A DNA stretch of 20,806 bases from IMG/VR virus record IMGVR_UViG_3300023700_000771, positions 1 through 20,806 of that record, one strand, 5' to 3'. The stretch comes from a virus. The translations under genes were made by a program, and so were the position numbers. Below, one piece after another: positions 3,463 to 14,690 of this stretch (the stretch's first letter is position 1; the number at the start of each line of letters is the position of its first letter). The notes beneath the pieces are model-generated. The model saw only the letters and a program-made list of their open reading frames with translations. It had not been told where the DNA came from and searched no databases.

Positions 3463-3674
3463 TGTCGCTGATTTTTAAGATTATGGTAGCATCGTTGGTA
3501 GCAAATAGGCCAGCGGTTCCGCCCCCTCCTCGGAGGGGTAGGCCACCAAAAACAATACACGACATTGATTTATCCAAAGTCGATGAGGTAATCCATGACG
3601 CAAAAAAACTTGATGATGGTGTGCGAGGCCAAGCTGGTTCTCGAAAAGGCAGACAACACAGAACCCACGGGTAA
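3462..3674 (+). CDS. Small basic ORF overlapping the protease gene
   Basis: A 70-residue ORF that begins in the portal stop codon (TAATG) and runs 80 nt into the protease gene in another frame. Without it, 132 nt between portal and protease would be non-coding, which is unusual in this packed operon. The middle reads PPPPRRGRPPK, resembling an AT-hook-like basic motif, followed by an acidic helix-like IDLSKVDEVIHDAKKLDD. The last 20 or so residues, inside the protease gene, look like out-of-frame translation. There is no good ribosome binding site at 3462; an internal ATG lies at 3483. It may be a real small protein, or a leader whose translation is coupled to the protease. A GC-rich inverted repeat (3523-3538) lies inside it. 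I do not recognise a family. Confidence 0.4.
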   Translation: MSLIFKIMVASLVANRPAVPPPPRRGRPPKTIHDIDLSKVDEVIHDAKKLDDGVRGQAGSRKGRQHRTHG

Positions 3675-4416
3675 TATCGAAGCTGTTGTCACAACTTGGG
3701 GCCCGCGTGAAGGCGCTGATGGCCGAAAGTTCAACTATCAGCCAGAGGCATTTATGCAGTGGGCTGAGGACTTCTCCAAGGCTGGCCGACCATTGCCAAT
3801 GTTCGTGAATCACGATGCTGATTCAATTCCAGTTGGTGAGTGGACATCATTTGAATTTGATGATACAGGCATGACCGCATGTGGTCGCCTTTACATCAAC
3901 ACCACTCAAGGCTCCGATCTGTATCAAGTCATGAGCGAATCGCCCAATATGTTTGGCGGCGTCTCTGTTGGCGCATACGCTGAAGAATATCAGTGGACAA
4001 AAGAAGACGGTACTCCAATGACCGTTGGCTCTGACAATCCATACGAAGACGGCTATTTCCAAATCACCAAAGGTGGCTTGCGTGAAGTGTCCGTCGTGAT
4101 GTATCCAAACAACCCAATGGCAGAAGTCAACAAGCTGGAATACTTCCGCCCCGACGGCACTGCCGACCTGAAAGTTTTGGAGCAAGCACTGCGGGATGCA
4201 GGGTTAATCCGAAAAGATGCGGTCGCTGCCGCATCTATCTTCAAGAAAGTGATTGAACAGCGTGATGCTGGACATGAGCAACTTGAAATTGCGCCAAAGC
4301 AGAGTGATTCTGATGCGGAAGCGACCGAAGCTGCGAAAGTAGCAGAAGCTGCGATTCTTGCCGCTCTTGAGCAGCGTGAATTGCTCAAATCCCTCGATAA
4401 ACGACTGAAAGGTTAA
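3595..4416 (+). CDS. Prohead protease (HK97/U35 type)
   Basis: Serine protease that is packaged in the procapsid and cleaves the N-terminal arm of the capsid protein during maturation. The 273 residues show the family signature in order: H73 in FVNHD, S124 in GGVSVGA, and the diagnostic LREVSVVMYPNNPMAEV block at residues 162-178, in which E164 is the likely third active-site residue. Residues 195-205 (ALRDAGLIRKD) match the helical segment common after the protease core. From about 230 onward the protein is an alanine- and glutamate-rich helix that might contact the capsid arm. The ATG at 3595 follows GAGGT (3585-3589) at normal spacing. The gene ends three bases before the first capsid gene. 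The active-site assignment is by pattern with the family, not by alignment. Confidence 0.93.
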   Translation: MTQKNLMMVCEAKLVLEKADNTEPTGNIEAVVTTWGPREGADGRKFNYQPEAFMQWAEDFSKAGRPLPMFVNHDADSIPVGEWTSFEFDDTGMTACGRLYINTTQGSDLYQVMSESPNMFGGVSVGAYAEEYQWTKEDGTPMTVGSDNPYEDGYFQITKGGLREVSVVMYPNNPMAEVNKLEYFRPDGTADLKVLEQALRDAGLIRKDAVAAASIFKKVIEQRDAGHEQLEIAPKQSDSDAEATEAAKVAEAAILAALEQRELLKSLDKRLKG

Positions 4417-4419
4417 ACC

Positions 4420-5766
4420 ATGTCTCAAGTCATTCTTGACAAATTGGATGCCATCGAAGCTAAACAAGCTGAGAGCATCGTGGCCGTTGAAGCCAAAATC
4501 CCCGCCGCCGTCGAAGCCGTCAAAGCTGAGATGAGCGAGATGGTTGCTGCGTTGGAAGCCAAAGTTGCCTCCATCCAAGCTCCCGAATTCATCCGCACTC
4601 CTGCTAAGACTGTTCGCCAAGACGTGAACCGTAAAGTTGTTGAGCAATTGAAGACTTTGGCCTCTGGCTCGAAGACTACTTTTGAAAGCAAACTGCAAGT
4701 GTTTGCCGACGAAGCTCAGTACGATGCGTACATGAAAGAAGCCTCTGCTTTGACCGCTGGTGGTGATGGCAAGGGTGGTCGTACTGCGTATGACCCTGTG
4801 TTCGTCGCTCTGCGTTTGGCTAACCCATTGCGCGGCGTGTCGCGTACCGTGGCTACCGATGGCTCCAGCTATCAGTTCCGCGTGAAAACTGGCAACGCAG
4901 GCGCTCGTTGGGGCTACGGCATCCAAAACAACGGCGCGGAAACCACTGAGAACACAAAGATTTGGCAACAAGTCTTGAAGGACATCAACGTCCAGTTCCC
5001 AATCCGTACTGCTGCATTGGACGACATCGACGGCTTGGAAGCCAACGTGGTTGACGACATGCTGGCCGAATTCGCTGAGAGCGAAGGCTTGGGCATGATC
5101 AAGAACTTTGAAGCTGTGGGTGACGGTACAACCAACCCATACGGCGGCTCTGATGGCGTTCGTGGCATCAACAGCTACCCCGGCGCTAACGCATCCTACA
5201 CAGGCGGCGTGGTTTCGGTGTCTTCGTTCGGCCCCACAGGCACTGGCGCATCAAGCGGCTTGCACAACCTCGCCACTTATGACCAGTTGACTACCAACGG
5301 TGACGCTCAAGTCAACGAAGTGGTCTACAAGGACATGATCAACTTCATCTATTCCTTGCCACAACAATACTGGACTCCAAATGCGAAGTTCATGATCAAC
5401 CCATTGATGTTGGCCGCTATCCGTGGCTTGACAGACCAAAATGGCACTCCGATCTTCAAGCAAATGGAAGCCATGACCTTGGACGGTATCGTTGGTCAAA
5501 TGTTGGGCTTCGACGTGGTGGTGAACAAGTACATGGACAATCCGTTCGGTACTGGCGTGACTGGTACAACCAGCCTCTACCCAATCCTGTTCGCTGACTT
5601 CCCACGCTATCACACCATTGTTGATCGCTTGAACATGGTTCTGCGTCGCTACGACCAGACCTTGCCCGGCTACATCACCTTCTACGGTGAGAAGCGTTTG
5701 CAGTCCGGTATTCGTGACCCCTTCTCTGGTGTCCGTTACCGTTCAACTGCCACTGCAACTGTCTGA
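4420..5766 (+). CDS. Major capsid protein 1 (HK97 fold, with scaffold arm)
   Basis: Main shell protein, 448 residues, directly after the protease as in HK97. Residues 1-56 are a heptad-like coiled coil rich in Ala, Glu, Lys and Val, and residues 1 to about 105 look like the delta (scaffolding) domain removed by the protease. The mature core begins around EASALT at residue 107 and continues with the FVALRLANPLR segment typical of the Phage_capsid family, a GGSDGVRGINSYPG glycine-rich turn and a C-terminal GEKRLQSGIRDPFSGVRY. No separate scaffold gene is visible, which fits an attached arm. The start has GAAAGG at 4407-4412. A strong intrinsic terminator begins 11 nt after the stop, and a shorter paralogue follows. 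The exact cleavage point is not visible from sequence. Confidence 0.95.
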   Translation: MSQVILDKLDAIEAKQAESIVAVEAKIPAAVEAVKAEMSEMVAALEAKVASIQAPEFIRTPAKTVRQDVNRKVVEQLKTLASGSKTTFESKLQVFADEAQYDAYMKEASALTAGGDGKGGRTAYDPVFVALRLANPLRGVSRTVATDGSSYQFRVKTGNAGARWGYGIQNNGAETTENTKIWQQVLKDINVQFPIRTAALDDIDGLEANVVDDMLAEFAESEGLGMIKNFEAVGDGTTNPYGGSDGVRGINSYPGANASYTGGVVSVSSFGPTGTGASSGLHNLATYDQLTTNGDAQVNEVVYKDMINFIYSLPQQYWTPNAKFMINPLMLAAIRGLTDQNGTPIFKQMEAMTLDGIVGQMLGFDVVVNKYMDNPFGTGVTGTTSLYPILFADFPRYHTIVDRLNMVLRRYDQTLPGYITFYGEKRLQSGIRDPFSGVRYRSTATATV

Positions 5767-5777
5767 TAGTTGCCATT

Positions 5778-5802
5778 GGAGGGGCTTCGGCCCCTCCTTT
5801 TT
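5778..5802 (+). terminator. Intrinsic terminator between the two capsid genes
   Basis: A perfect 8-bp GC-rich stem, GGAGGGGC (5778-5785) with GCCCCTCC (5790-5797), closed by a TTCG tetraloop and followed at once by five T residues (5798-5802). This is a classic Rho-independent terminator. It sits 11 nt after the capsid 1 stop and 23 nt before the capsid 2 ATG. No promoter can fit in that remaining gap, so capsid 2 and later genes presumably depend on readthrough, antitermination or a promoter inside capsid 1. Confidence 0.93.
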
Positions 5803-5825
5803 CGGCTCTCACTAGGAAAAACAAA

Positions 5826-6842
5826 ATGACCATCATCGAAAAAATCCTGAACGGCATCAAGCAAGCCATCACTGAAAACCAAGAGGTCACAATTGACCTG
5901 AAAGAAGCCTCTGCGCTGACTGGCTCTGGTTCGGGTGTTGGTGGTAACGTCGTATTTGATGACGCATTCGCTGCGCTTCGTCAAGCTAACCCTCTGCGCC
6001 AAGGCGCTCGTGAAATTCCCGTCATGGGTTCTGATGCTCAATTCGTTGCCAAGACTGGTAACGCTGCGAATGCAACAAACCCATGGACTTATGTGCCCAA
6101 CCCAAACAGCGGCACTCCAAACATCAACACTTCAATCTGGCAATTGCCTGTGCGCGTCCTGACCGCCCAGTTGCCAATTCGCTCTGCTGTGTTGTCTGAT
6201 GTGAATCAATTGAATGCGGCCATCGTTGATGACTTGGCGCTCGAATTCGCACAGCTCGAAGGTCAATCCATGGTCTTGAACAATGACCAAGATGGTTCGA
6301 CAACAACCAGCACTGGTGGCACTGATGGCCTGCGCGGCTTGGACTCGTATCCATCCAACTCGGTGAGTCAATACGGCTCTAGCGGCACTGCAATCACCAA
6401 CGGCCTGCATAAGATCGCCACCGTGTCATTGGGCGGCTCTGCTGTCACTTACGACAAAGTGGTTGCCATGGCTAAAGCGTTGCCTGCTCAATACTGGTCG
6501 CTGCCCGGCACTGCTTGGCACATGAGCCCCGACATGATCTTGGCTCTGCGCGAGCTGAAGGACTTGCAAGGTCTGCCATTGTTCCTTGAGCTTGGTGACT
6601 CTGACGGCGCGGCGGTCGGTTACGTCTTCGGCTTCCCTGTTGTGCCAAACCCATTCTTGAGCGCCGCCTTCCCAATTTACTTGGGCAACTGGCCTCGTTT
6701 CCTGACCATTGGCGACACCGAGCAAATGACCATCAAAGGCTTTGAGCAAACAGCTCCCGGCTTCGTGACCATGTTCGCCGAAAAGCGTGTTGTGTCTACT
6801 GTGCGCGACCCCTTCGCTGGTGTTCGCATGTCTGCCGCCTAA
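5826..6842 (+). CDS. Second HK97-fold capsid protein (paralogue, no scaffold arm)
   Basis: A 338-residue capsid paralogue. Residues 27-81 align without gaps to residues 107-161 of capsid 1 with 30 of 55 identities by eye, both starting EASALT and sharing ALR-x-ANPLR and KTGNA. Other shared blocks are GGTDGLRG-x-DSYP and the C-terminal AEKR-x2-S-x-VRDPFAGVR. The copy lacks about 80 N-terminal residues: only about 26 residues precede the conserved core, so the coiled-coil scaffold arm is missing. It has its own ribosome binding site (AGGA 5814-5817, ATG 5826) but follows a terminator, so it is probably made in smaller amounts. Possible roles are a vertex (pentamer) subunit, a minor shell component or a decoy duplicate. 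It is intact, without frameshift, which argues for a maintained function. Confidence 0.9.
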   Translation: MTIIEKILNGIKQAITENQEVTIDLKEASALTGSGSGVGGNVVFDDAFAALRQANPLRQGAREIPVMGSDAQFVAKTGNAANATNPWTYVPNPNSGTPNINTSIWQLPVRVLTAQLPIRSAVLSDVNQLNAAIVDDLALEFAQLEGQSMVLNNDQDGSTTTSTGGTDGLRGLDSYPSNSVSQYGSSGTAITNGLHKIATVSLGGSAVTYDKVVAMAKALPAQYWSLPGTAWHMSPDMILALRELKDLQGLPLFLELGDSDGAAVGYVFGFPVVPNPFLSAAFPIYLGNWPRFLTIGDTEQMTIKGFEQTAPGFVTMFAEKRVVSTVRDPFAGVRMSAA

Positions 6843-6854
6843 TAGGGGTTCCGC

Positions 6855-7523
6855 ATGTCCGTTGACCAAGTTGGCTATTTGAATTACGGGGCTCCCACAA
6901 GGAACCCGTTCAATTACGCAAAGACCGAGCAGATCAAGCGTGACATTGCAACGTCTTGGTTGACTCTCGACGAAATCACCAATCAACTCAACTTGTTCGG
7001 TGATGAAAGTCAAGACAGCTACTTGACTGGCCTTGAGCTGGCCGTGCGCATGACGATTGAAGACTTCCTTGGGATGTCCATCTTCCCGGTGTCTTATCGC
7101 GTCTGGTACAACGCGGCAAGCCTGTATGGCACGCCTTTGTCTTTGGACTTGCCTGAGGTGAGCCAGAACTTTGACCCTGCACAGCCGGGCATCACGATCA
7201 ATGCTGTGAAGTATTGGACTGGCGATCAAGTGCCCGTCATTCATGTGATGTCGAAGACCTCGTATTACTACGACGCCTCGGGCAACAAGGTGATCTTGGA
7301 CAGCCTGCCAAGCGATCTGAATACGGTGATGACATCGCCAATCTATTGCGAGTACACAACAGCAGCAAACCCCTTGGCGGCTTACCCCGTGATCAAACAG
7401 GCTGGTTTGCTGTTGTTGACTCACCTCTACAACAATCGTAGCGACACGACTGGCCCGATTCAGCACAACATCCCTTGGGGTGTTCAGACCTTGCTTCGTC
7501 CGTACAAACCACTGGTGATGTAA
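6855..7523 (+). CDS. Head-tail connector (HK97 gp6-like)
   Basis: A 222-residue protein in the first neck position after the capsid genes. Such proteins form the adaptor ring under the portal. The helical N-terminal half (SWLTLDEITNQLNLF and SQDSYLTGLELAVRMTIEDFLG) is the usual pattern of gp6-like connectors, where an early helix pair is followed by a beta-rich insertion. The C-terminal LLLLTHLYNNRSDTT and the end GVQTLLRPYKPLVM match the family's closing signature, a helix followed by a leucine-arginine-proline-tyrosine ending. The insertion between about residue 85 and 175 is longer than in HK97 gp6 itself, as in the phiE125 gp8-like subgroup. An AGGGG upstream of the ATG serves as ribosome binding site. 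The stop abuts the next ATG directly. Confidence 0.85.
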   Translation: MSVDQVGYLNYGAPTRNPFNYAKTEQIKRDIATSWLTLDEITNQLNLFGDESQDSYLTGLELAVRMTIEDFLGMSIFPVSYRVWYNAASLYGTPLSLDLPEVSQNFDPAQPGITINAVKYWTGDQVPVIHVMSKTSYYYDASGNKVILDSLPSDLNTVMTSPIYCEYTTAANPLAAYPVIKQAGLLLLTHLYNNRSDTTGPIQHNIPWGVQTLLRPYKPLVM

Positions 7524-7868
7524 ATGGCAATTGCACGTTTTGAGAATGTCGATGTGAACAACCTTACCTTCGGTACTGATGCCGTGGGTGAGTACACGAC
7601 GACCATCTCCAAGTGGTTCACCACTCGCGCACGCGTGCAAGACGTAAAGAACAACCTTGAGATTGACTCAAAATACCGCGTCTATCAAGACCTTGTGAAC
7701 CTGATCTTCAACTACACGCCCAACATGAAGGAAGTGGTTGACAATCAGAATCTTTACTCGATTACATGGCGCGGATTGGACTGGCGTATCACTGATGTCT
7801 TTGAGTCAAATGATCGGATGAATGTTCGATTGCTCTGCTATCGTAATGACCCATCCACAAGGGTTTAA
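7524..7868 (+). CDS. Head closure / head-tail joining protein
   Basis: A 114-residue protein in the second neck position. Head-tail joining proteins close the connector channel and form the interface for the tail. The C-terminal part, YSITWRGLDWRITDVFES followed by a beta-strand-like MNVRLLCYR, matches the small beta-barrel pattern of the Phage_H_T_join family, in which a Y-x-I-x-W-x-G-x-x-W/Y-x-I sequence precedes alternating strands. The N-terminal WFTTRARVQDVK segment (residues 31-42) also fits the common arginine-containing strand. It starts immediately after the connector stop codon, with no gap, so its translation is probably coupled. Assignment depends on size, gene order and the C-terminal pattern. 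Confidence 0.75.
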   Translation: MAIARFENVDVNNLTFGTDAVGEYTTTISKWFTTRARVQDVKNNLEIDSKYRVYQDLVNLIFNYTPNMKEVVDNQNLYSITWRGLDWRITDVFESNDRMNVRLLCYRNDPSTRV

Positions 7869-7870
7869 GC

Positions 7871-8293
7871 ATGACCACTCAACAGAATCCAGTCCTATAC
7901 GCGGAAGCGATTCAAGCGCAACTCAAGGCCGTTCTCGGCAGCGGGATTCCTGTCTATGCGCTGATGAACCGCAACTACGCAACAGAGGGTTCGGGCTTTG
8001 TGACTTGGCAGTTGCGCAATGTGCACCAGCCTGTTTACACTGGCACGAATCAAAGCATCAAAGGCATTGATCGTCCAACATTCCAAATCAGCGTGTTTGC
8101 GCAAAACGCGAATACAGCTCTTGCAATGTCGAACACTATCTTGCAGTCGATGCACGGCTATTCGGGCATGTATGGTGGCTCAGAGGGAATCTATGTGGCG
8201 AAGACTGACATCCTGTGGTTATACAACTCGTATGACGACAAATTAGGTCTATACCAAATTTTCCTAGACGCTACAATCGACATACCTACATAA
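7871..8293 (+). CDS. Tail terminator / tail completion protein (DUF3168-like)
   Basis: A 140-residue protein in the position where siphoviruses encode the tail terminator that caps the tail tube and binds the head. The pattern PTFQISVFAQNANTALAMSN, a helix, then HGYSG and a C-terminal strand YNSYDDKLGLYQIFLDATI, is the usual profile of DUF3168-type tail completion proteins, which end with a strand predicting oligomer packing. It has AAGGG (7859-7863) seven bases ahead of the ATG. In HK97-like phages a gp10-like gene normally sits between the head-closure and terminator genes; here that gene is missing from this place and a candidate appears after the tail chaperones instead. Confidence 0.72.
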   Translation: MTTQQNPVLYAEAIQAQLKAVLGSGIPVYALMNRNYATEGSGFVTWQLRNVHQPVYTGTNQSIKGIDRPTFQISVFAQNANTALAMSNTILQSMHGYSGMYGGSEGIYVAKTDILWLYNSYDDKLGLYQIFLDATIDIPT

Positions 8294-9299: not shown

Positions 9300-9773
9300 A
9301 TGACACGACTATCACAAGCCCTTGGCTCAAAATTCGCGGATGCGGTAAATGAAATCCGCACTCGTACCTTCACCCTTGGCAAGCACGAATTCAAAGTTCG
9401 CGTGCCATTGAATGCTGAGATGGACGCCTTGCTCAAGCGCGTCACAGAGGTGAACCCAGAAGTCGCAGAAGCTCGACTCAAAAAAATGACTGAGGCGCTT
9501 CGCTCTAACCCTCCTGATGGCGTCGAGCTCAAAGAAGATGGCGATGTGGTTGTCGAAGGCCGCTCCACGCGAGAGACTGTCAACGCTATTCTGATGCTCG
9601 AAAATCGCGTCGTAGAGTACATGAAGCTGCTCGTGACTGAAGATGGCATGTTGGACGACATCACTTATGAGGAAGTTGATGCAGAGCTTCCATTTGCCTC
9701 TCAGCTTGACTTGATCGACGCGATCAACGAAGCCATTCAACCCGGCTTCAAAGACACGCGAAAAAACTCCTAA
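9300..9773 (+). CDS. Tail assembly chaperone (G-type, zero frame)
   Basis: A 157-residue protein occupying the place of lambda gpG or HK97 gp13, which coat the tape measure and prevent aggregation before the tube polymerises. The FTLGKHEFKVRVPLNAEMDALL segment (about residues 24-45) matches the conserved start of these chaperones, where a strand pair leads to an R-x-P and a helix. The C-terminus contains the slippery heptamer A AAA AAC (9761-9767), and the stop TAA at 9771-9773 lies in the spacer before a stem-loop. A fraction of ribosomes should therefore continue in the -1 frame into the next ORF. The normal product would be the more abundant of the two. Confidence 0.87.
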   Translation: MTRLSQALGSKFADAVNEIRTRTFTLGKHEFKVRVPLNAEMDALLKRVTEVNPEVAEARLKKMTEALRSNPPDGVELKEDGDVVVEGRSTRETVNAILMLENRVVEYMKLLVTEDGMLDDITYEEVDAELPFASQLDLIDAINEAIQPGFKDTRKNS

Positions 9774-9826
9774 GGGACATTCACCAGCAAGCCAGAGCCT
9801 ATATTTGGGCTCATGGTGGCTGTCCC
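9761..9826 (+). promoter_or_regulatory. Programmed -1 ribosomal frameshift signal
   Basis: Slippery heptamer A AAA AAC at 9761-9767, read as AAA AAC in the zero frame. A 6-nt spacer (9768-9773) contains the zero-frame stop TAA. It is followed by a bulged stem-loop: outer 6-bp stem GGGACA (9774-9779) with TGTCCC (9821-9826), a 2x2 internal loop, an inner 5-bp stem CACCA (9782-9786) with TGGTG (9814-9818), and an upper AGCC/GGCT pairing. The downstream ORF is in the -1 frame and has no stop between here and 10118. All four features of an X XXY YYZ frameshift site are present. Confidence 0.9.
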
Positions 9827-10120
9827 GATGAGATTCCGGTGCTTGACATGCGGAACATCGAAATCATGATCAGCGACGGCATGATTGGCAACAGGGCCAT
9901 CTTGTTGGCGTTGAGCACGTTGACGACTGGCAACCTCAATTCAAAATTGAAGCAAGGTGTCAATCCCTTTACAATCAAGACGGTTCTTCCGTCCACGCAT
10001 GACTACATCATTCCTCCTTTGTCCGATGAGGAACAAGCGCTTCAAGCAAGTAAGCAATTGTTAAGTTTCATGGCCTTGGCTCCGGGAGCTCCTCGTTCGT
10101 TCACGGAAAGGCTGACATGA
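9767..10120 (+). CDS. Tail assembly chaperone frameshift extension (T-type)
   Basis: The -1 frame extension of the chaperone, reached by slippage at 9761-9767. The full fusion would run from ATG 9300 to the stop at 10118-10120: 156 residues (the slipped AAA AAA codons being 155-156) plus 117 more, 273 in total. An internal GTG at 9839 could give a separate 93-residue start, but the reading frame is open back to the slippery site and the first 24 codons look coding (RAYIWAHGG), so fusion is preferred. In lambda the equivalent GT fusion binds the tape measure and recruits the tube protein. The stop overlaps the ATG of the following gene (ATGA). Confidence 0.87.
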   Translation, partial: LLRDIHQQARAYIWAHGGCPDEIPVLDMRNIEIMISDGMIGNRAILLALSTLTTGNLNSKLKQGVNPFTIKTVLPSTHDYIIPPLSDEEQALQASKQLLSFMALAPGAPRSFTERLT

Positions 10121-13657: not shown

Positions 13658-14247
13658 ACGTGATCACGCCTGTTGACGGAACCAGCAACATTCGATTTGC
13701 GGATTTTGTCCGCATAACCACGAATGGGAATGTCTATCGTTTTACGACATTGCCGTATGACATCACCGTTCCTGCCGTTGACTCATCGGCCTTCAGTGCT
13801 GTTGGCGTGCTGATGAAAGTGGGTGAAGCGCAGCGTGACATCAAGAGCACGGCAAATGAGACGACGGTCACTTTGACTGGAATCGACACGGCGATGCTTG
13901 GTTTTGTTCTGAGCAACAACATCAAAGGCTCTCAGATTGAGATGTGGCATGGGTTCTTTGATACAAACGATACCCTGATCACCTCTGGTGGCACTGGTGG
14001 CCTTTACAAGTTCTTCAATGGATTCATCAACTCTTTCTCAATCTCTGAGAATTGGATGGAAGAACAGCGCATGTATGTGGGCACAGTGTCTGTGAGCGCG
14101 TCTTCCGTTCAGCTCATCTTGCAGAACCGAATCGCTGGCCGATACACCAACAACAACTCATGGCAATTCTTCAGCCCCAACGACACTTCCATGAACCGCG
14201 TGAACTTCATTCAGAGCATCAATTACCAATTCGGTAAAACAGCATGA
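13654..14247 (+). CDS. Minor tail protein (L-like position)
   Basis: A 197-residue protein starting in an ATGA overlap with the previous gene. It has a beta-rich layout with VTLTGIDTAMLGFVLSN, a WHGFFDTN turn, a FFNGFINSFSISEN strand pair, and a C-terminal R-x3-N-N-S-W-Q-F-F-S-P-N-D-T-S-M-N-R-V. That ending, where a pattern of arginine, paired asparagines and D-T-S precedes a final GK, is common in phage minor tail proteins near the baseplate hub (DUF2163-like or lambda L-position). Lambda L carries an iron-sulphur cluster with four cysteines; this protein has no cysteine cluster, so it is not an L orthologue in that respect. The stop overlaps the acetyltransferase ATG. Confidence 0.65.
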   Translation: MNVITPVDGTSNIRFADFVRITTNGNVYRFTTLPYDITVPAVDSSAFSAVGVLMKVGEAQRDIKSTANETTVTLTGIDTAMLGFVLSNNIKGSQIEMWHGFFDTNDTLITSGGTGGLYKFFNGFINSFSISENWMEEQRMYVGTVSVSASSVQLILQNRIAGRYTNNNSWQFFSPNDTSMNRVNFIQSINYQFGKTA

Positions 14248-14690
14248 AAGTTCGTGACGCGTCACCGTTCGACATTCCTCAAATTCTTGACATGCTTCGG
14301 CAGTACAGGAAGCAAACTCCAATTCCATTTTTGGCCGACGCGGACAACGCTGAATACATCACACGCATGTTGACGGAGCTGATGGCTGGCCGTGGTGTGG
14401 TTTTGGTGTCAGAGGATGAGGAACTGACAGGGATGCTGATTGCCATCATCTCGCCTAGCCTATGGTCGCCAGAGCACCTTCTTTTGACTGAGATGGCATA
14501 TTGGGTCAACCCATACTGTCGGGGCAGCACAGCGGGCTATAGGCTGCTTGCTGCCTATCAGCAGCGCGGCGCGGCGCTGAAGGCAGAAAAGCGCATCTGC
14601 AATTTCGTAATCAGTAAAATGTCAAACAGCCCGAATCTTCAATACCAGAAGTTCGGTTTCACAAAAGTAGAAGAATCTTGGGTGGGTTGA
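14244..14690 (+). CDS. GNAT-family N-acetyltransferase in the tail-tip operon
   Basis: A 148-residue protein with the GNAT fold pattern. Residues 1-20 (MKVRDASPFDIPQILDMLRQ) match motif C/D; ELTGMLIAII gives the central strand; EMAYWVNP is the conserved strand leading to the acetyl-CoA pyrophosphate loop R93-G94-S95-T96-A97-G98; and YQKFGFTKVEESWVG is the closing GNAT motif B. Substrate is unknown. It overlaps the previous gene by ATGA and is one nt from the tip protein gene, so it is within the tail-tip operon and not a cargo gene between modules. In lambda this slot holds K, an NlpC/P60 peptidase; no peptidase is present here. It might acetylate a virion or host protein, or have become a structural remnant; the loop appears intact. 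Confidence 0.85.
   Translation: MKVRDASPFDIPQILDMLRQYRKQTPIPFLADADNAEYITRMLTELMAGRGVVLVSEDEELTGMLIAIISPSLWSPEHLLLTEMAYWVNPYCRGSTAGYRLLAAYQQRGAALKAEKRICNFVISKMSNSPNLQYQKFGFTKVEESWVG

Follow-up and report, generated by a model that had tools for sequence, protein, structure and literature searches.

In HK97 a single capsid gene yields both hexamers and pentamers, as in most phages of ~40 kb, and separate penton and hexon proteins are rare in phages, T4 being the example named and the arrangement being tied to its large genome (PMC13185644). A dedicated vertex protein is thus not needed a priori in phages of this size, most of which use one protein for both capsomers. In T4, the vertex protein gp24 is present in 55 copies, against 960 of the major protein gp23 (PMC5694885); gp24 loses 10 residues on processing and gp23 loses 65, and gp23 carries an extra A-loop that stabilises the hexamers (PMC9958956). 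Gordonia phages of cluster DR resemble the locus described here in having two capsid genes, a likeness at the level of annotation, the proteins being labelled "hexamer and pentamer" (PMC9413003).

The stretch of DNA analysed here (the window) comprises 20,806 nucleotides of IMG/VR virus record IMGVR_UViG_3300023700_000771. Both of its capsid proteins are encoded, at 100% identity, on a 40,006-base IMG/VR contig, in which 400 consecutive bases of the window also recur exactly. The genes run in the order terminase small and large subunits, portal, S78 protease, MCP1, hairpin, MCP2, head-tail connector and tail genes (Table 1). Further downstream, a likely programmed -1 frameshift resembling that of lambda gpG/gpGT lies at 9300-10120, in the region of the tail-assembly chaperone, directly ahead of that of the tape measure gene; a slippery A-AAA-AAC is found at 9761, just 5' of the stop of a 157-aa ORF, and the -1 frame is open to 10120. 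An acetyltransferase (phrog_1249, E 1e-17) is encoded at 14244-14690, within the tail gene block.

Table 1. Features of the two-capsid-gene region, in window coordinates
Feature	Position	Strand	Basis or remarks
Prohead protease (Peptidase_S78)	3595..4416	+	PF04586, E 1.2e-9; presumed to cut the capsid proteins
MCP1 (capsid 1), major capsid protein with N-terminal delta (scaffold) domain, 448 aa	4420..5766	+	PF05065, E 8.1e-29; TIGR01554, E 1.3e-28
MCP1 delta/scaffold region, residues 1-106, predicted largely helical	4420..4737	+	AF2 helices 2-51, 65-82 and 98-112, low confidence
MCP1 junction motif EASALTAGGDGKGGR, presumed protease cut region	4738..4782	+	Conserved in MCP1 relatives, common to MCP2
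MCP1-specific insert 1, residues 255-262	5182..5205	+	Absent from most MCP2 relatives (alignment)
MCP1-specific insert 2, ~residues 290-296	5287..5307	+	Absent from most MCP2 relatives and three outgroups
MCP1-specific insert 3, ~residues 376-384	5545..5571	+	Absent from most MCP2 relatives and three outgroups
Hairpin, 8-bp GC-rich stem and 4-nt loop, then T-tract; putative leaky terminator and/or 3' mRNA barrier	5778..5802	+	GGAGGGGCTTCGGCCCCTCC then TTTTT
MCP2 likely ribosome binding site, AGGAAA	5814..5819	+	Sequence reading
MCP2 (capsid 2), HK97-fold capsid paralogue without long delta domain, 338 aa	5826..6842	+	PF05065, E 2e-23; AF2 pTM 0.72; Foldseek
MCP2 short conserved leader, residues 1-26	5826..5903	+	Family consensus MTITEKILxGIKQALxEGxxVTIDLx
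MCP2 junction motif EASALTGSGSGVGGN, counterpart of the MCP1 junction	5904..5948	+	

The two capsid reading frames have the extents and lengths given in the earlier note, which regarded their products as paralogues, and the comparison bears this out: residues 107-161 of MCP1 and 27-81 of MCP2 align without gaps with exactly 30 identities in 55 positions, RDPF-x-GVR is found at the C-terminus of both, and over the full core 134 of 340 residues are identical (39%, E 3e-64). Pfam, PHROGs and NCBIfam all identify the two as HK97-type capsid proteins, with scores well above the cut-offs of Phage_capsid PF05065 (101.3 bits for MCP1 and 83.6 for MCP2, cut-off 24.2) and TIGR01554 (100.2 and 76.5 bits, cut-off 27.5). 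They belong to the HK97-type delta-domain capsid family, MCP2 without most of the delta domain. A single-sequence search of the PDB with MCP2 gave no match, and profile searches found mainly the RcGTA capsid. The AF2 model of MCP2 (pTM 0.72, with the N-arm and E-loop region poor in parts) has as its best Foldseek matches the capsids of RcGTA (E 7.7e-14, TMt 0.62) and HK97, so that the predicted fold is of the kind the earlier note had expected. The MCP1 model is poor (pTM 0.38), and its top structural matches are still HK97-fold capsids. With its N-terminal scaffold of ~100 residues, helical according to low-confidence AF2 predictions, and the S78-type protease encoded beside it, MCP1 has the delta-domain layout of HK97 gp5 and the RcGTA capsid; MCP2 has a leader of 26 residues only in place of such a scaffold. 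The delta region of MCP1 is conserved less than the core, and three inserts, placed on an alignment that included three outgroups, further distinguish MCP1 from most MCP2 relatives.

The arrangement most like this one is that of T4 gp23 and gp24, likewise HK97-fold paralogues, with the vertex gene lying 3' of the major gene and after those for portal and protease (the T4 order is portal, protease, scaffold, gp23, gp24). MCP2 resembles gp24 in being a paralogue encoded beside the major capsid gene, probably in being less numerous than its partner, and in having a far shorter N-terminal propeptide, if its leader is indeed cut off as the junction described below suggests. The two systems differ in that T4 has a separate scaffold, gp22, whereas that of MCP1 is fused to it as the delta domain; in genome size, 169 kb against ~38-40 kb; and in the identity between the paralogues, about 20% against 39%. 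No Gp23 family match to MCP1 or MCP2 was present among the Pfam matches at E up to 0.001. By sequence, MCP2 therefore falls outside the T4 gp24 family, and the analogy with gp24 appears to be the best available reading of it.

The same pair recurs throughout related phages. Scans of IMG/VR with single proteins and with alignments found 121, 167, at least 580, at least 524 and 349 stretches, in overlapping sets, and among 366 related loci MCP1 and MCP2 are both present, adjacent and in the same order in 349. Of the remaining 17, 16 show one gene with the contig end within 190 bases, and L166, with no more than a 44-residue match close to the end of its contig, is ambiguous, so that no clear case of MCP1 occurring without MCP2 emerged among the 366; as the searches are weighted towards close relatives, there may be a more distant sister with a single MCP. 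The S78 protease lies upstream of MCP1 in all 276 loci with room for it. The few contigs from metagenome-assembled genomes carried mixed labels and were not informative as to prophage origin or host. In a tree with seven single-MCP phages as outgroup, MCP2 forms one clade (99/97) and MCP1 and MCP2 together split from the outgroup (100/100), which makes one duplication before the radiation of the lineage the simplest reading; the monophyly of MCP1 is weak (52/80), and the exact place of the duplication is accordingly not fixed. Four loci (L118, L200, L243 and L248) have one capsid gene with a broken frame and look like assembly errors or isolated defects, and the MCP2 relative at L152:5931-7253 has a frame of 441 aa, ~100 residues longer than the others.

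Both capsid genes are under purifying selection (median pairwise dN/dS over unsaturated pairs 0.154 for MCP1 and 0.142 for MCP2), and MCP2 is old, kept and constrained. Tandem duplicates are common, and MCP2 might be a decaying or recent spare copy with no specific role; with an old duplication, 349 adjacent pairs, no clear loss and a dN/dS of ~0.14, the probability of this explanation is close to negligible. Actual decay is ruled out by the selection values and the census of loci, and capsid 2 is intact, as the earlier note had maintained.

A search of 50,697 phage records at E 1e-5 found a relative of MCP2 in one alone, Methylophilaceae phage P19250A (KX815270, 38.7 kb); the further matches that appeared at a limit of 10 are marginal and to single major capsid proteins. 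P19250A, the only cultured relative found, belongs to the same lineage: its genes 0005 and 0006 have the same order, with both proteins 56-57% identical to those of the window, and the hairpin between them has a weaker T-tract than that of the window. Its capsid 1 is annotated as such, while the orthologue of capsid 2 (L001:6066-7124) is labelled "hypothetical protein". Phage Venkman has been described as similar to P19250A in synteny (PMC8163748). It was considered as a second cultured member (MT375522, our L291) and rejected, having one annotated capsid gene and a separate scaffold; it was not among the tblastn matches to either capsid protein.

Relatives of MCP2 have a leader of ~26 residues followed by E-A-S-A-[LI]-T-G-S-G-x-x-x-G-G, and a motif of the EASALT...GG type also closes the delta region of MCP1. 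The earlier view that capsid 2 starts at the core, as if already processed and with no delta domain, thus holds as regards the absence of a long delta, but a conserved 26-residue leader precedes the junction. In the TIGR01554 alignment, residue 30 of MCP2 corresponds to position 103 of the 385 in the profile, near the site, after residue 103, at which HK97 gp5 is known to be cut. Together, the conserved leader and the MCP1-like junction suggest that the same protease probably cuts both proteins, with the leader of MCP2 being removed as in T4 gp24. A serine/alanine residue in the junction motif agrees between MCP1 and MCP2 in 157 of 159 loci (143 SS, 14 AA, 2 mixed). This co-variation was set aside as proof of a shared cut site and is suggestive only, as the strong raw counts reduce to just four independent changes, of which 3 agree, 0 oppose and 1 is neutral (p 0.25). 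The idea that the leader is a remnant of the MCP1 delta domain was also dropped, since the profile alignment is no better than with shuffled columns (251/500). The HK97-fold shells of encapsulins have no delta domain, and the long delta is likewise missing from MCP2, which could accordingly assemble into a separate particle, either encapsulin-like or a small accessory one; this is highly improbable, however, as MCP2 keeps a leader and an MCP1-type junction, lies inside the head operon and is adjoined by no cargo-like gene, the next gene encoding a head-tail connector.

The hairpin between the two capsid genes has a minimum free energy of about -17.7 kcal/mol and the make-up of an intrinsic terminator, a GC-rich stem-loop followed by a T-tract; no Rfam match to it was found. 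Of 165 distinct MCP1-MCP2 spacers, 163 have a GC-rich stem of 6 bp or more, and 150 of these a T-rich tail as well; most of those without the tail have the stem with a weaker T-tract. The stem is kept while its sequence varies (114 different stem-loop sequences over all spacers), and the same test is rarely positive elsewhere: 8/254 after MCP2, 18/242 before MCP1, and 0/269 and 2/268 inside genes. At L147:6360-6418 and L152:5891-5930 the stem is kept and the T-tract lost. Since some members have the stem alone, the hairpin may act beyond termination, as a 3' barrier or processing site. In the window only 23 bases separate the T-tract from the start of MCP2, and no promoter was found between the capsid genes on the + strand in a search of 3500-8000, so MCP2 and the genes after it probably depend on read-through. 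The earlier prediction that a terminator lowers the expression of capsid 2 is thus half borne out: a terminator-type hairpin is there, but it precedes all of the downstream head and tail genes and would lower the connector and tail genes alike, MCP2 not being singled out. In T7, similarly, the terminator Tphi lies directly after major capsid gene 10 and ahead of lower-copy genes; the minor T7 capsid form 10B comes from gene 10 itself, with no paralogue involved.

Codon bias, which is a proxy for expression only, was compared over 167 dereplicated loci. It is highest for MCP1 (1.54), followed by tail tube (1.40), MCP2 (1.37), tape measure (1.30) and portal (1.25), with connectors (1.22-1.23), protease (1.22) and terminase (1.16) at the lower end. 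The value for MCP1 is above that for MCP2 in 153 of 167 loci, and the MCP2 value is above that for portal in 109 of 122, though the loci are related and sign-test p-values overstate their independence. The rank of MCP2, between portal and MCP1, agrees with tens to a few hundred copies, and we infer that its output is lower than that of MCP1 but still substantial, the hairpin being the presumed cause of the lowering. Lacking the scaffold arm, MCP2 could in principle act outside the mature virion, as an assembly factor or decoy subunit that is degraded or excluded, for example limiting aberrant assembly. We think this decidedly unlikely, given that a full HK97 core is maintained under purifying selection, that the maturation junction is conserved and that codon bias is above that of portal and connector.

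A shell role away from the vertices deserves more weight, though we regard it too as unlikely: MCP2 might enter hexamers, or form a capsomer ring by the portal, tuning head size or nucleating assembly. Its membership of the MCP1 family with a shared junction, a codon bias fitting tens to a few hundred copies and its lower-expression position behind the hairpin would all suit such a role, and from sequence alone pentons and minor components of hexamers cannot be told apart. A paralogue present across the lineage, with consistent indels and no clear loss, is, however, most easily accommodated by one distinct geometric site, and in T4, the well-studied two-gene HK97-fold precedent, that site is the vertex. 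The balance therefore tips slightly in favour of a two-paralogue shell in which MCP1 forms the hexameric lattice and MCP2 serves as a dedicated minor subunit, most probably that of the pentons.

On this penton reading, the shell would consist of two HK97-fold paralogues. MCP1, which has the delta scaffold fused to it, would be made in high amount and form the hexameric lattice, while the hairpin directly after it would cut the output of all genes downstream; MCP2, the first gene past the hairpin and equipped with a short leader only, would be made at a lower yet substantial level. We infer that MCP2 is incorporated into the virion, joining the prohead, where it most likely forms the pentamers of the 11 vertices not occupied by the portal (~55 copies). 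The delta domain of MCP1 and the short leader of MCP2 would then be taken off by the S78 protease at like junctions, so that the mature chains would start at an equivalent residue.

It is an even call whether this amounts to an independent second origin of a dedicated vertex protein, in a large clade of freshwater delta-domain phages with genomes of ~38-40 kb, with a stoichiometry controlled by a hairpin and a truncated, co-processed leader, although phages with genomes this small otherwise make do with one capsid gene. Well-studied small tailed phages form hexamers and pentamers from one capsid protein, and the use of a distinct vertex protein, as in T4, has been treated as a rare speciality of a large phage; a small, environmentally widespread lineage appears to match it independently. 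With its closer paralogues (39% identical) and a scaffold fused to only one of them, the pair would offer a simpler system for studying five- versus six-fold specialisation, and it lets one ask how the subunit ratio is set and why the split persists. It also gives a testable function to a gene called "hypothetical" in P19250A, whose capsid 2 orthologue could be re-annotated as an HK97-type capsid paralogue.
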